Below, piece by piece: positions 1,172 to 6,562 of a DNA stretch of 20,509 bases. Positions within the stretch are counted from its first letter, which is position 1; each line of letters starts with the position of its first letter. The notes beneath the pieces were generated by a model that was not told the origin of the DNA, ran no database searches, and saw nothing but the letters and a program-made list of their open reading frames with translations. Origin of the DNA: a virus; the IMG/VR virus record IMGVR_UViG_3300032282_000396, positions 1 to 20,509 of that record. One strand, 5' to 3'. Made by a program: the position numbers and the translations under genes.

Positions 1172-2038
1172 ATGGCAGCAATGGAAGTTTCGGTATCAAT
1201 TGAAGAACTACGCACACGAAAGATTTTCGTGGCAACGCCAATGTACGGCGGAATCTGTGGTGGGCAGTATTGCAAGTCAACTGCCGACCTATCATCTATG
1301 GCAGCTCAATATGGCATGGATGTTCGATTCTTTTATCTATTCAACGAATCGCTGATCACCCGCGCACGAAACTATCTCGTGGATGAGTTTTTGCGTTCTG
1401 ACTGCACTCATCTAATGTTCATCGATTCTGATATCGGTTTCGACCCGAACGACGTTATCGCTTTGTCTGTTATCGCAGACCCTAAGAGCGATAAGGATAT
1501 TGTGTGTGGTCCCTATCCTAAGAAGTGTATCGCTTGGGAAAAGATCGTACGAGCAGTCGATAAGGGATTCGCCGATAAAGACCCCAACAATCTTGAGAAG
1601 TACGTTGGCGACTATGTGTTCAATCCCAAGGAAGGAACTGGATCTATTGCACTCGACGAACCAGTAGAGGTTCTTGAAGGTGGAACAGGCTTCATGATTA
1701 TTCAGCGCAAAGCTTTAGAAAAGTTTGCTGCTGCGTATCCTCAGTACGGTTATCTACCAGATCATGTTCGCACAGAACACTTCGATGGTACTCGCGAAAT
1801 CCTTCAGTATTTTCAGGCGGAAATTGACCCGAAATCCAAGCGTTATCTTTCTGAGGACTATTGGTTCTGTCAGAAGATGTGGGATATTGGCGTTAAGACA
1901 TGGTTGTGTCCTTGGATGAAGCTCCAGCATACTGGTTCATATGTGTTCGGTGGTTCGCTTATCGACCTTGCACAGATTGGTGCTGGTGCTACTGCCGACG
2001 AGTCTTCTATGCCAAATAAGATGGGTAAGAAGAAGTGA
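1172..2038 (+). CDS. GT-A fold glycosyltransferase
   Basis: A 288-residue soluble protein with glycosyltransferase family 2-like signatures. An N-terminal strand reads KIFVATPMYGG, followed by SLITRARNYLVDEFLRSDCTHLMF. The acidic metal/sugar-nucleotide motif DSD is at residues 85-87 (FIDSDIGFDP). The centre has GGTGFMIIQRKALEKF. A late LSEDYWFCQKMWDIGVKTW segment holds the SED typical of the catalytic-base region, ending in LQHTGSYVFGG. This layout is common in phage glycosyltransferases. The sugar and acceptor are unknown; modified phage DNA, a virion protein or host surface glycan are all possible. The start is supported by GGAG at 1162-1165. It ends just before the clamp promoter. A second, unrelated-looking glycosyltransferase lies at 3741, and a dioxygenase lies nearby. 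Confidence 0.8.
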   Translation: MAAMEVSVSIEELRTRKIFVATPMYGGICGGQYCKSTADLSSMAAQYGMDVRFFYLFNESLITRARNYLVDEFLRSDCTHLMFIDSDIGFDPNDVIALSVIADPKSDKDIVCGPYPKKCIAWEKIVRAVDKGFADKDPNNLEKYVGDYVFNPKEGTGSIALDEPVEVLEGGTGFMIIQRKALEKFAAAYPQYGYLPDHVRTEHFDGTREILQYFQAEIDPKSKRYLSEDYWFCQKMWDIGVKTWLCPWMKLQHTGSYVFGGSLIDLAQIGAGATADESSMPNKMGKKK

Positions 2039-2088: not shown

Positions 2089-2757
2089 ATGATGAAGCTA
2101 TCTAAAGAAACTACGGAAATCCTAAAGAACTTTGCAGCGATTAATCCATCGCTCATCTTTCAGCCAGGCACAGTTCAAAAGACTGTCAGCCCACAAAAGA
2201 CTGTTCTCGCTAAGGCTAATATCAGCGAGAGCATTGCTACTGAGTTCGCTATCTACGACCTTTCACAGTTCATTAGCACTGTGTCTATGTTCGAAGACCC
2301 TGACCTGACTTTCGGTTCTGAGTCTGTCGTTATCAGTAACGGCAAGGCAAGAACAACTCTGCGTTATGCTAAGAGCGATCTTATCCAGTCTCCTCCTGCC
2401 AAGGAAATCAACCTGCCTTCGACAGAGATTTCTTTCACGCTTGAGGCTGGTGCGCTGCAGAGTGCGTTGCGTGCGGCTGGCGTTCTTTCGTTGCCTGAGC
2501 TTGGTCTAGTTGGTAAAAACGGTAAGGCTTATCTCACCGCACTCGATTCGAAAAACGAAGGGTCTAACACGTTCGAGTATGAAGTCGGTGAAGCTGCGGC
2601 GAACTATCGTATGGTCTTCAAGATTGATAATCTCAAGATTCTTAATCGCGAGTACGAGGTTCGGGTTTCTGCTAAGGGGATCTCGCACTTCAAGTCGAAG
2701 ACTGGAGACGTAGAATACTGGATTGCTACCGAACAGGCTAGTAAGTACGGTGACTAA
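2089..2757 (+). CDS. 45: Sliding clamp (DNA polymerase accessory protein gp45)
   Basis: A 222-residue homologue of T4 gp45, the trimeric ring that tethers DNA polymerase to DNA and in T4 also activates late transcription. The N terminus MKLSKETTEILKNFAAIN is close to T4 gp45 (MKLSKDTTALLKNFATIN). ANISESIATEFAIYDLSQF matches the first-domain core, and the C-terminal half keeps the FKIDNLKI and YEVRVSAKG strands of the second domain. Length is close to the T4 protein (about 228). Two adjacent ATGs (2089, 2092) are usable with AAGGAG at 2078-2083; T4 homology aligns the second Met with the T4 start. It has its own promoter and is followed by a UUCG-loop terminator, so it can be expressed independently of the clamp loader. 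The presence of T4-late-like boxes fits gp45-dependent late transcription. Confidence 0.95.
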   Translation: MMKLSKETTEILKNFAAINPSLIFQPGTVQKTVSPQKTVLAKANISESIATEFAIYDLSQFISTVSMFEDPDLTFGSESVVISNGKARTTLRYAKSDLIQSPPAKEINLPSTEISFTLEAGALQSALRAAGVLSLPELGLVGKNGKAYLTALDSKNEGSNTFEYEVGEAAANYRMVFKIDNLKILNREYEVRVSAKGISHFKSKTGDVEYWIATEQASKYGD

Positions 2758-2802: not shown

Positions 2803-3744
2803 ATGATGCGCGAAGAATTCCTCTGGGTTGAAAAGTATCGTCCTCATAAAATCGCAGACTGTGTTCTGCCTGATAATCTAAAGACCACGTTTCAGCAATT
2901 CGTGGACGACGGCAATATTCCTAATCTTCTTTTGAGCGGAACAGCAGGTGTAGGTAAGACTACTGTTGCTCGTGCTATGCTTGATGAAATCGACGCTGAC
3001 TATATCGTTATCAACGGATCTATGAATGGAAATATCGACACTCTTCGCAACGATATTCGAAACTTTGCTGCAACCGTATCGTTCGGCGGCGGCAGAAAGT
3101 ATGTTATCCTTGATGAGTCTGATTACCTTAACGCTAATTCCACTCAACCTGCTCTTCGCAATTTTATGGAAGAGTTCTCGTCTAACTGTGGTTTTATCCT
3201 TACATGTAATTTTGTCAATCGTATCATCGATCCTTTGCATTCTCGCTGCTCTGTAATCGAGTTTAAGATTGGTGCTAAGGAAAAGGCTACACTCGCTAAG
3301 GAATTCCTCTCGCGTGCGTGCGGGATCCTAGATCAGGAGAACGTAACCTACGATAAGAAGGTTCTTGCTGAAGTTATCATGAAGCACTTTCCTGATTGGC
3401 GTCGTGTTCTCAATGAGTTGCAGCGTTATGCTGCGTCAGGTAACATTGATGCTGGTATTCTTGCGTCGGTTGACAACGTAGAAATCAAAGAACTCGTCAA
3501 GTATCTCAAGGCTCGCGAGTTCGAGAACATGCGTAAGTGGGTTGGTCTTAACGCAAGTATGGACGTGAACGTTTTATTCCGTAGGCTTTATGATGCAGCA
3601 AGTGCTATCCTCAAGCCTGAGTCTATTCCTGCGCTCGTACTTGCGCTTGCGGATTATCAGTATAAGGCTGCGTTCGTGGTGGACCAAGAAATCAATATGT
3701 CCGCCTGTATGACTCAAATCATGATGGACTGTGAATTCAAGTGA
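2803..3744 (+). CDS. 44: Clamp loader large subunit (gp44)
   Basis: A 313-residue AAA+ ATPase matching T4 gp44 (319 residues), which with gp62 opens the gp45 ring and loads it at primer-template junctions. The N terminus carries EKYRPHKIADCVLP. Walker A is SGTAGVGKTTVA near residues 46-57, and Walker B with its DExD-type box is VILDESDYLN near residue 105. A sensor-1 strand reads FILTCNFVNRI, and the SRC arginine-finger motif is in HSRCSVIEF. Toward the C terminus FPDWRRVLNELQRYA gives the sensor-2 helix, followed by the collar region. Two consecutive ATGs (2803, 2806) are present. GGAG at 2797-2800 is two bases from the first and five from the second, so the second may be the true start. The stop overlaps the GTG start of the next gene, implying translational coupling. 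Confidence 0.95.
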   Translation: MMREEFLWVEKYRPHKIADCVLPDNLKTTFQQFVDDGNIPNLLLSGTAGVGKTTVARAMLDEIDADYIVINGSMNGNIDTLRNDIRNFAATVSFGGGRKYVILDESDYLNANSTQPALRNFMEEFSSNCGFILTCNFVNRIIDPLHSRCSVIEFKIGAKEKATLAKEFLSRACGILDQENVTYDKKVLAEVIMKHFPDWRRVLNELQRYAASGNIDAGILASVDNVEIKELVKYLKAREFENMRKWVGLNASMDVNVLFRRLYDAASAILKPESIPALVLALADYQYKAAFVVDQEINMSACMTQIMMDCEFK

Positions 3745-4445
3745 TTCCTATCTACATTCCTACTCGTGGCTTAGTGACTAAGTCTTACGACTCATTGCCT
3801 GATGCTCTCAAGGCTAACGTCGTTCTCATGGGACATGATAAGCCTATCGCAGAAAAGCGACAGATCATTCTAGATGGTGCTATCTCACTCAATCAACCAT
3901 TCTTTGTGATGGTCGACGACGATTGCACGTTCACACGCTACGAAGATGGAGTGTGTACAAATAAGCCTGCTACTGCTGAGGATTTCTCTGCTTTCTATAA
4001 GAAGGCTATGAAGCTATTCACTCGCTATAGTAATCTAGCGATGATCAGCGATCACCCACGAGCCTTTTCCAATACGGATAAAGAATACTCTGGTGGTTTG
4101 AGCAAGTTCGTGTTACACTATACGGATAGAGTAAAGTCTGCGCGATACGATCGCATTGGCTTATTCGAAGACGTTGACTTCTACCTCCAGCTCGCCCGCG
4201 AGGGAAAAGCTTATGTAAAGCTGAAAAGGCTTGCAACGTCGAACGACTCGCAGGACTACGTAGATATCGCCCCAGAACGTTATGAAGGAATCTTTAGAGA
4301 CTGGGCTGATAATTTTCCTAACGTGACTATCGACTGGTCCAAACCATCGGTGTTTGCTGGGAATAAAAAGATACCGGTGACTGTGAGATTCAAGTATAAC
4401 AAACTTGCGTCTCAATCTATCTTTGATATTATAGGAAATCTGTGA
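3741..4445 (+). CDS. Glycosyltransferase-like protein, possibly TET-associated (TAGT) type
   Basis: A 234-residue protein with an N-terminal nucleotide-sugar-binding pattern: IPIYIPTRG, a KRQIILDGA helix, and the acidic motif DDD at residues 59-61 within VMVDDDCTFTR. Later features include MISDHPRAFSN and LFEDVDFYLQLAREGKAYVKL, whose ED pair fits the catalytic part of a GT-A enzyme. The overall pattern resembles the TAGT family, described by Iyer, Burroughs and Aravind as associated with TET/JBP-type oxygenases in predicted phage DNA-modification systems. That family call is tentative; the glycosyltransferase fold is more secure. Translation starts at GTG 3741, overlapping the gene 44 stop by four bases. 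The gene is absent from this position in T4, where 62 directly follows 44. The next two genes may belong to the same insertion. Confidence 0.6.
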   Translation: MIPIYIPTRGLVTKSYDSLPDALKANVVLMGHDKPIAEKRQIILDGAISLNQPFFVMVDDDCTFTRYEDGVCTNKPATAEDFSAFYKKAMKLFTRYSNLAMISDHPRAFSNTDKEYSGGLSKFVLHYTDRVKSARYDRIGLFEDVDFYLQLAREGKAYVKLKRLATSNDSQDYVDIAPERYEGIFRDWADNFPNVTIDWSKPSVFAGNKKIPVTVRFKYNKLASQSIFDIIGNL

Positions 4446-5008
4446 TGAGCAAGATTGACGAACTCGCTAACCTTATACAAGAACAAACTCCGTGGCAACC
4501 AATTTCTTCAGTGAAGTCGCGTGGTGCTTACCATCCAGGCGTCAAGATGTCTGGCGTGTATCAACTCTCGACGCAACAGATCGACGAGTATGTTCACGAG
4601 GAAATCGGTTATGTAGGTATGTCCAAGAACGTCGAGGATCGTATTTACGGAGTCAAGCTCGGGTTCTACGGCAAGAAAAGCACCAATCACACAGCTGGAA
4701 AATGGTTGAAGTCGAGCGGATTTGATCCTGATACAACCTACTATCGTATCCTGTTCTGTGAAGAAGCTCTGAAGGTTGAGCGTATTCTACAGGAAGCTAA
4801 TAAGAAACTGTTCGGCTATACCTATAAGTGGCAAGGTGCTGGTGGAAATCAAGCTGGTCGAGATTTCCAGTTGCAGGAAATGATTAATGAGCTTTCTATC
4901 ACCTCTATCGTCGAAGACGTTATTCCTATGGTTGAGCGTAAGATTGGTCGTGAGCTACTGATTGCTCTCCTAAATAAAGAGATAACCATTAAGGCTATCG
5001 ACGAATAA
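4445..5008 (+). CDS. GIY-YIG-like protein
   Basis: A 187-residue protein with a recognisable GIY-YIG arrangement. SGVYQL (residues 36-41) gives the GIY half. IGYVGMSKNVEDRIYG (54-69) gives the YIG half and the downstream catalytic arginine (R66). A helix with candidate metal-ligand glutamates follows (EEALKVERILQEANKK, about 106-121), and then GGNQAGRD. Such domains are metal-dependent nucleases used by homing endonucleases, repair enzymes and restriction-type enzymes. No separate DNA-binding domain is obvious; the C-terminal 50 residues look helical. ATG 4445 overlaps the previous stop in a TGATG; a GTG at 4442 would add one residue. It sits where T4 has gene 62. Candidate roles are a homing-type nuclease, a nuclease acting on unmodified DNA, or a non-catalytic derivative. 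The fold call is moderately sure; the role is unknown. Confidence 0.6.
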   Translation: MSKIDELANLIQEQTPWQPISSVKSRGAYHPGVKMSGVYQLSTQQIDEYVHEEIGYVGMSKNVEDRIYGVKLGFYGKKSTNHTAGKWLKSSGFDPDTTYYRILFCEEALKVERILQEANKKLFGYTYKWQGAGGNQAGRDFQLQEMINELSITSIVEDVIPMVERKIGRELLIALLNKEITIKAIDE

Positions 5009-5017
5009 GGATATCAC

Positions 5018-5767
5018 ATGATAGGAGTAAATGGAACACCTTGGTTCGACTTAGAACCGTATCTAGATATGGATTCTTTGGAAAAACAAAAACATCTCAT
5101 CGCTATGGGACTAACATTAGCAAATAATTTGCGCGCTCCTACTGTAGGAACACAAGGAATATTCTACGACCAATCTATGATTGAGTTGGGAGATTTTGCT
5201 AAGAATGTGATGGAAGACCCAAACTACGAGTATAAGCAAATCCTTCCCATACTAAGGACACGCGGGAATGTTCGTATGTTCTGTAAGTATATGTATCCTA
5301 CTGTTGCTCTTAATGATGCAATTCATCTCAATACCGTTAAAGGCGGTTTAGATTATGCAAACAAACATCTACATGCAGAATGCGAAGATACTCTTGCTTT
5401 CAAGTATTTTGAGTTTCTGCGCAAATGGATAAATGACCAAAAGATATTCAAAGAATGGGGTCGTGTGATATTTTTTATCAACGAACCAGGCGTTCAGGTA
5501 GTAAAACATCGAGATTATCCGAGTGGTAAATCGCGTAGAGATAACATGATGTGGATTAACTTGGATAAACGTAAAAATTTTTGGATATGGGATGAAGAAA
5601 CCGATACTAAACATTATACTAATAGTCGCGGATTAATATTCGATAACGCCGATTGGCATGGAGTAGATCCCACCGAGTATATGGGATGGAGCTTACGAGT
5701 CGATGGTGTGTACACTGATGAGTTTTTGGATAAGTCTGGTTTGAGGGATTGGTTTATCAATGAGTAA
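5018..5767 (+). CDS. 2-oxoglutarate/Fe(II)-dependent dioxygenase
   Basis: A 249-residue protein with the double-stranded beta-helix signature of 2OG-Fe(II) oxygenases. The iron ligands read as H164-x-D166 (VVKHRDYP) and H214 (FDNADWHGVDP), followed 13 residues later by R227 (SLRVDG), the usual 2-oxoglutarate-binding arginine. Strands between them (NMMWINLDKRKNFWIWDEE) complete the barrel core. The N-terminal 110 residues are not recognised. Such enzymes hydroxylate proteins, small molecules or nucleobases. Proximity to two glycosyltransferases raises base hydroxylation followed by glycosylation as a hypothesis, but protein hydroxylation is equally open from sequence alone. The start is supported by AAGGAT at 5007-5012. 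The gene is visibly richer in A+T than genes 44 or 43, which suggests separate acquisition. Its 3' end overlaps gene 62 by eight bases. Confidence 0.8.
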   Translation: MIGVNGTPWFDLEPYLDMDSLEKQKHLIAMGLTLANNLRAPTVGTQGIFYDQSMIELGDFAKNVMEDPNYEYKQILPILRTRGNVRMFCKYMYPTVALNDAIHLNTVKGGLDYANKHLHAECEDTLAFKYFEFLRKWINDQKIFKEWGRVIFFINEPGVQVVKHRDYPSGKSRRDNMMWINLDKRKNFWIWDEETDTKHYTNSRGLIFDNADWHGVDPTEYMGWSLRVDGVYTDEFLDKSGLRDWFINE

Positions 5768-6158
5768 TCCCTTCATATATGTAACCAGTGTGAGCTCTAA
5801 TAAAAAAAACCTGATGAGGGGTTCTGAAAATGATGAGCTATCTGAAAAGGCTTATAAGCCGTATCTAACTAATCGTTCGTTATCGTTGTTCCACGACTCT
5901 ATTCTCCACGCTAACGAAATGAATATGCGTCCCCACCTCGACAACAAGCAACAATACGAGTATTTACTAAATACTTTGCGGAAGCGTAATAGGTTCTCCA
6001 AAGCAAAGTGGAAAAAACATGAACCTAGCGCATCCGTTGAGATGATCATGGAGTATTTCGGCTATGGTCGTGCTAAGGCAGAACAGGCTATGCGCGTATT
6101 GACCGATGACCAGTTGACCATGATCGAGAGTGCTCTCGACAAAGGTGGAAAAGGATGA
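5760..6158 (+). CDS. 62: Clamp loader small subunit (gp62)
   Basis: A 132-residue protein assigned to the phage clamp loader A subunit family (gp62). PYLTNRSLSLFHDSILHANEMN and YEYLLNTLRKRNRFSKAKWKK match the pattern of short gp62 proteins from cyanophage-type T4 relatives. It is shorter than T4 gp62 (187 residues). C-terminal helices (SVEMIMEYFGYGRAKAEQAMRVL) would contact the gp44 ring. gp62 forms the wedge of the gp44/62 pentamer that loads gp45. Position supports the call: it directly precedes regA, as in T4. It starts inside the end of the dioxygenase gene (8-base overlap) and its stop overlaps the regA ATG in ATGA, so translation is probably coupled. An A8 run lies near codons 14-16. 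In T4 genes 44 and 62 are adjacent; here they are separated by about 2 kb. Confidence 0.8.
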   Translation: MSNPFIYVTSVSSNKKNLMRGSENDELSEKAYKPYLTNRSLSLFHDSILHANEMNMRPHLDNKQQYEYLLNTLRKRNRFSKAKWKKHEPSASVEMIMEYFGYGRAKAEQAMRVLTDDQLTMIESALDKGGKG

Positions 6159-6562
6159 ACGCATCGGTTGAAAATATGATCGAAGTTAAGCTACGATCAG
6201 CAGAAGATTTCCTAAAAATTCGCGAAACATTAACTCGTATCGGAGTCGCTTCTCGACGCGATAAGGTATTGTTCCAGTCATGTCATATTCTACACAAACA
6301 GGGTCGATACTATATCGTTCACTTTAAGGAACTGTTTGCCCTAGATGGTAAGCCTACAAATTTCTCAGACGAAGATAAGGCACGTCGTAACACGATCACC
6401 AATCTGCTCGCCGAATGGGAGCTTATTGATATCGTGAATACCGAGCGCACGAATGATATCGTCGCACCACTAAACCAAATCAAAATCATAGCTCACAAAG
6501 AAAAGAATGAGTGGAAACTCGAAGCTAAATACAACATCGGTAAGAAGCGGACCGTTGATTGA
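6155..6562 (+). CDS. regA: Translational repressor RegA
   Basis: A 135-residue homologue of T4 RegA (122 residues), an RNA-binding protein that occludes initiation regions of early phage mRNAs, including those of the clamp, clamp loader and itself. The match is strong: MIEVKLRSAEDFLKIRETLT, then DKVLFQSCHILHKQGRYYIVHFKELF, EDKARRNTITNLLAEWELIDIV, and the C-terminal NEWKLEAKYNIGKK. The ATG at 6155 gives a seven-residue extension over T4. An in-frame ATG at 6176 aligns exactly with the T4 start but lacks a clear ribosome-binding site, while 6155 has GGTGGA at 6143-6148. The four-base ATGA overlap with gene 62 fits coupled translation. The clamp-45, 44, 62, regA order is the T4 order apart from the inserted genes. 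Confidence 0.95.
   Translation: MNASVENMIEVKLRSAEDFLKIRETLTRIGVASRRDKVLFQSCHILHKQGRYYIVHFKELFALDGKPTNFSDEDKARRNTITNLLAEWELIDIVNTERTNDIVAPLNQIKIIAHKEKNEWKLEAKYNIGKKRTVD

Follow-up and report, generated by a model that had tools for sequence, protein, structure and literature searches.

A cargo slot between clamp-loader genes 44 and 62 of a T4-like environmental phage holds a TAGT-family glycosyltransferase, a predicted GIY-YIG nuclease and a member of an undescribed 2OG-type dioxygenase family

Cytosine hypermodification in phages can combine TET/JBP dioxygenases with glycosyltransferases of the TAGT family. The TAGT of T6-type coliphages has been proposed to add a second glucose to glucosyl-hmC (PMC13390438). 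The free-standing GIY-YIG homing endonucleases of T4 (Seg proteins; PMC2988022) reside between conserved genes and are patchily distributed. Prolyl-4-hydroxylase (P4H), PHD2 and the Asp/Asn beta-hydroxylases belong to the 2OG-oxygenase fold class and carry its HxD...H...R active-site residues. In isolated cyanophages, the junction between the clamp-loader genes 44 and 62 is occupied by an N-MTase and a 2OG oxygenase (S-CAM8) or by a 2OG oxygenase and a cytosine MTase (S-SZBM1). The window described here, which is the whole 20.5-kb stretch of an IMG/VR virus contig with a T4-like replication block, has the same slot with the same kinds of cargo as these cyanophages, but the genes are different, and no TAGT is annotated in the cyanophages.

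The genes running from gp45 to regA all lie on the plus strand, with overlaps of the ATGA or GTGA type at most junctions (Table 1). The gp44/TAGT and TAGT/GIY-YIG junctions are start/stop overlaps (GTGA and ATGA, the GTG start of the TAGT gene overlapping the gp44 stop), and the gp62 start overlaps the preceding gene by eight bases, an arrangement that fits translation coupled to that of the clamp loader. The dN/dS ratio is approximately 0.06–0.07 in all three inserted genes, indicating strong purifying selection, so the genes encode retained proteins and are not chance ORFs. ORF positions, Pfam/PHROG matches and dN/dS thus confirm the preliminary description of three intact, co-directional genes between gp44 and gp62 (3741–5767). 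The same description mentioned another glycosyltransferase gene at 1172. A role for it as a partner of the inserted genes was rejected: phrog_1574 matches 75 ORFs in 91 locus sequences, most of which have it upstream of gp45, and this places the gene outside the insertion as a core gene of the neighbourhood. A phage-encoded ribosomal protein S21 (894–1133; 4e-15), kept in relatives, is also found near gp45.

Table 1. Annotated genes of the replication block and the gp44–gp62 slot in the window.
Feature	Position	Strand	Basis
Glycosyltransferase-like protein (phrog_1574), upstream of gp45	1172..2038	+	phrog_1574 9.5e-60
gp45	2089–2757	+	Pfam/PHROG
gp44, clamp-loader large subunit, left slot border	2803..3744	+	phrog_168 1.2e-120; Pfam Gp44_lid 1.4e-15
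TAGT-family glycosyltransferase, 234 aa	3741..4445	+	PF20691 1.3e-9; phrog_842 3e-8
Predicted GIY-YIG nuclease, 188 aa	4442..5008	+	Pfam GIY-YIG E 0.017 (below cutoff); motif residues
2OG/Fe(II)-type dioxygenase, 249 aa	5018..5767	+	15-sequence alignment; AF2; Foldseek
gp62, clamp-loader small subunit, right slot border	5760..6158	+	phrog_225 2.1e-32; Phage_clamp_A 3.5e-8
RegA translational repressor, downstream neighbour	6155..6562	+	Translat_reg 4.7e-44
gp43-like polymerase, 838 aa	in the window		position and appearance
UvsX and gp41-like helicase	same replication block		

The gp44/gp62 junction of these T4-like phages serves generally as a cargo slot. Across 80 gp44 loci, the two genes are separated by a gap that varies from 0 to 2365 bp and holds diverse cargo, showing that the insertion, singled out in the preliminary description, is not special to this phage. 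Approximately 49 sequences, the window included, carry at least 100 bp in the gap, and approximately 32 carry less; in one long relative (G045), the slot is empty. The cargo includes GIY-YIG, HNH-like and T5orf172 proteins, TauD and 2OG-FeII_Oxy_3 oxygenases, cupins, FkbM methyltransferases, and N6/N4-MTase-like proteins.

The 234-aa protein matches PF20691 (TAGT) at 38.7 bits against a cutoff of 27.5, a modest match that covers profile positions 58–195 of 205 (about 140 aa); TAGT is the sole Pfam family matched, phrog_842 (beta-glucosyl-HMC-alpha-glucosyltransferase) is the sole PHROG, and all ten slot TAGT records exceed the PF20691 cutoff. The earlier assignment of this protein as a glycosyltransferase is upheld and narrowed to the family of the T6-type DNA glucosyltransferases. 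A DDD sequence at residues 59–61 is invariant in nine homologues and, by analogy, is predicted to be the acidic metal-binding motif of a GT-A enzyme. The protein resembles the T6-type enzyme in its above-cutoff family match, the DDD motif and its T4-like phage genome, but its profile match is partial and its gene resides in the clamp-loader slot rather than at the T-even glucosyltransferase locus or beside a TET gene. TET (PF12851) was not matched in the window or in the slot-TAGT contigs, nor did these contigs, all of them fragments, yield dCMP-hydroxymethylase (PF00303), which could have supplied hmC; no contig unites a slot TAGT with TET, the window itself spanning only 20.5 kb.

The preliminary description called the 188-aa protein GIY-YIG-like, and this holds at the level of motif residues, although the Pfam match falls below its cutoff (15.9 versus 22.6 bits). 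Gly38-x-Tyr40, Tyr57-x-Gly59, Arg67, Glu113, and Asn136, whose roles as the GIY, YIG and catalytic residues were assigned by eye, are invariant in five homologues. GIY-YIG genes are patchily present in the slot, and the protein is probably a free-standing homing endonuclease, resembling the T4 Seg proteins in its location between conserved genes, its motif residues and its patchy distribution, but differing from them in its sequence divergence and in a conserved C-terminal region of its own. A 186-aa GIY-YIG-like ORF, recognised by eye and lacking a Pfam match, is located between gp45 and gp44 in G045 (L215:12879-13438), one junction upstream of the slot.

The 249-aa protein found no match in tblastn searches of phage records, in the scan of close relatives, or in Pfam, PHROG, NCBIfam and PDB sequences. 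Homologues were recovered from IMG/VR with a degenerate DNA pattern for NEPG-x5-HRD[FY]; an earlier pattern (FD..D..HG...R.DG) had returned 27 matches, of which the five read were all unrelated. The alignment-based scan then identified 17 viral loci and no member in bacterial genomes, and the protein thus represents an undescribed phage family outside Pfam, PHROGs and NCBIfam. His164-x-Asp166, His214, and Arg227 are invariant in 15 aligned homologues and correspond to the HxD...H iron triad and the 2OG-binding arginine. The AF2 model built on this alignment reached a pLDDT of 83.2 and a pTM of 0.82 (pLDDT only 37 from the single sequence). In Foldseek searches, P4H and PHD2 were the top PDB matches (E approximately 1e-6, probability 1.00), with TM-scores of only 0.3–0.5, so that the closest subfamily is uncertain, and viral Asp/Asn/Pro hydroxylases were matched in BFVD. 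The modelled fold and the invariant residues show the protein to be a predicted member of the 2OG/Fe(II) oxygenase superfamily with a double-stranded beta-helix fold, as the preliminary description had proposed from the sequence. It differs from P4H, PHD2 and the Asp/Asn hydroxylases in having an extra N-terminal helical half and no significant sequence match to them, and in the searches made it occurs in phages only.

The neighbourhoods of this family outside the slot suggest acyl or small-molecule chemistry. Off-slot homologues adjoin a fatty-acid desaturase in 13 of 16 loci, including contigs of 453 and 524 kb, and lie near PP-loop SGG(I/L)DS proteins (11 and 10 loci) and putative GNATs (10 loci), although several of these loci are near-duplicates and the counts are not independent. 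Further 2OG-type oxygenases and FA_hydroxylase are also found nearby, in some cases with ACP, TauD or Rieske proteins. Two loci (L164 and L165) have no desaturase/PP-loop context. A conserved phage cluster (L157-L163, L166, L168-L172) comprises the desaturase, two PP-loop SGG(I/L)DS proteins, GNAT-like proteins, FA_hydroxylase and several 2OG/TauD oxygenases, with ACP and Rieske proteins in some members, on contigs of up to 524 kb; a literature search on the desaturase/ACP cluster found nothing relevant. One contig (L151:5720-12018) carries two full-length paralogues of the dioxygenase family and, adjoining them, several other HxD-type oxygenase-like ORFs.

The TAGT and the dioxygenase each occur without the other, and are therefore independent cargo rather than an obligate pair. 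The TAGT gene lies directly after gp44 in eight contigs (L001-L004, L006-L009), while a ninth (L005) starts inside it; all nine lack the dioxygenase. The cargo downstream of TAGT varies, with none in L003 and L005. Conversely, the dioxygenase is the only slot cargo in L153 (82% identity), which groups with L018/L019 in the gp44 tree (support 100/100), away from the window. Such single-cargo cases are few: TAGT alone in L003 and L005, and the dioxygenase alone in one contig.

Relatives of this phage encode the enzymes of cytosine methylation, oxidation and glycosylation elsewhere in their genomes. G013 (139 kb, gp44 81% identical) carries a C5-MTase and a TET/JBP protein, and beside the TET gene an NTP-transferase/kinase fusion, a HAD-like protein and a TAGT; G045 (158 kb, gp44 87%) carries an MTase, a TET and the same NTP-transferase/HAD/TAGT cassette. 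PF12851 was matched in G013 and G016, and C5-MTase (PF00145) in G003, G004 and G013, and also in G045. G003 and G004 carry TAGT in the slot and the C5-MTase at the same locus, approximately 10 kb upstream. Of the long relatives, the closest is G001 (55 kb, gp44 97%), which also has a slot TAGT and gave no PF00145 match within its 55 kb; at the MTase site (L141:18112-19368), where sister phages have a block of peptide deformylase-like, C5-MTase and SAM-MTase-like genes, it carries a DruA-like gene (PF14236, 4.3e-18) and one for a 212-aa protein, and the pathway may therefore not be universal. The TET relatives define a conserved locus of T4-like phages (L135, at G013:105000-124999, L203 and L177-L212), which recurs in 36 loci. 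Downstream of the TET gene lies one or another of at least three cassettes: NTP-transferase/kinase, HAD and TAGT; epimerase-like and TAGT-like proteins; and a methyltransferase-like set. TAGT was matched in 14 of the 30 TET-locus records tested, and TET contigs and slot-TAGT contigs share two metagenomes (3300043446 and 3300043395), which is suggestive only. G013 and G045 resemble known TET/JBP–TAGT systems in uniting a C5-MTase, a TET and a glycosyltransferase cassette; the window differs from such systems in that its adjacent oxygenase is no TET and in that MTase and TET were not seen in its 20.5 kb.

The preliminary description offered, as a plausible reading, the TAGT and its neighbouring dioxygenase as one replication-coupled unit that oxidises and then glycosylates DNA bases. 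Adjacency and shared direction, the TAGT family assignment, the genuine 2OG-type active site and fold of the dioxygenase, and the cytosine MTase beside a 2OG oxygenase in S-SZBM1 agree with such a unit, which could also include the GIY-YIG protein, but it is very improbable. PF12851 matched none of the 15 family members, whereas sister phages encode real TETs elsewhere, and TET is absent from the top 50 PDB fold matches; the nearest folds are instead those of prolyl and Asp/Asn/Pro hydroxylases, an outcome that the preliminary description had counted against its own proposal. The separate occurrence of the two genes and the desaturase/PP-loop context of most dioxygenase homologues argue further against a pair. 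There is likewise very little chance that the dioxygenase is an AlkB-like enzyme of nucleic-acid repair or demethylation: such a role would suit a replication operon, and the PDB fold search lists human ABH2 at rank 50, but P4H and PHD2 outrank it, the AlkB Pfam profile matched 0 of 15 members, and the neighbourhoods of the homologues point to acyl/PP-loop functions rather than repair.

That the slot TAGT has no part in DNA modification, and works as a GT-A enzyme on glycans of the host envelope or on a protein of the virion, is also unlikely. The short, moderate PF20691 match, the lack of the G003/G004 C5-MTase in G001, and the failure to find either PF00303 or PF12851 in the TAGT-slot contigs would agree with such a function; on the other hand, the only families matched are TAGT and a PHROG named for a DNA glucosyltransferase, sister phages carry C5-MTase and TET, and the gene sits within the replication operon. 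Cytosine oxidise-then-glycosylate chemistry is plausible in this phage group, and this part of the preliminary reading is supported by the slot TAGT and by the C5-MTase, TET/JBP and NTP-transferase/HAD/TAGT genes of relatives; its choice of the neighbouring oxygenase as the oxidiser is not supported.

The reading favoured with moderate confidence is that of a cargo slot whose TAGT acts on modified cytosine, with TET and MTase encoded elsewhere, a homing GIY-YIG nuclease and a dioxygenase that is an independent passenger. Small genes would be gained, lost and swapped between gp44 and gp62, where their translation appears to be coupled to that of the clamp loader. The TAGT would most likely serve as an accessory glycosyltransferase that adds a sugar to modified cytosine in phage DNA, and its acceptor, a hydroxymethyl group or a first sugar, would be supplied by a C5-methyltransferase, a TET and a sugar cassette elsewhere in the genome, as seen in the sister phages. 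The GIY-YIG nuclease probably mobilises the slot by homing, and the substrate that the dioxygenase hydroxylates is probably not a DNA base but a side chain of a protein, or else a small or acyl-type molecule. A more specific and decidedly tentative proposal is that the clade makes hypermodified cytosine by means of a C5-MTase, a TET and a cassette that adds the first sugar, the slot TAGT being an optional second glycosyltransferase; the sugar coat might then be diversified through cargo swaps, possibly by homing.

Genes for a glycosyltransferase and a dioxygenase that stand side by side in a phage operon do not necessarily serve one pathway, and the clamp-loader operon contains a widely used cargo slot, one of whose passengers has led to a phage 2OG-oxygenase family outside Pfam and PHROGs. 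Environmental T4-like phages encode a complete candidate pathway for cytosine methylation, oxidation and glycosylation, which makes hypermodification in uncultured phages directly testable.
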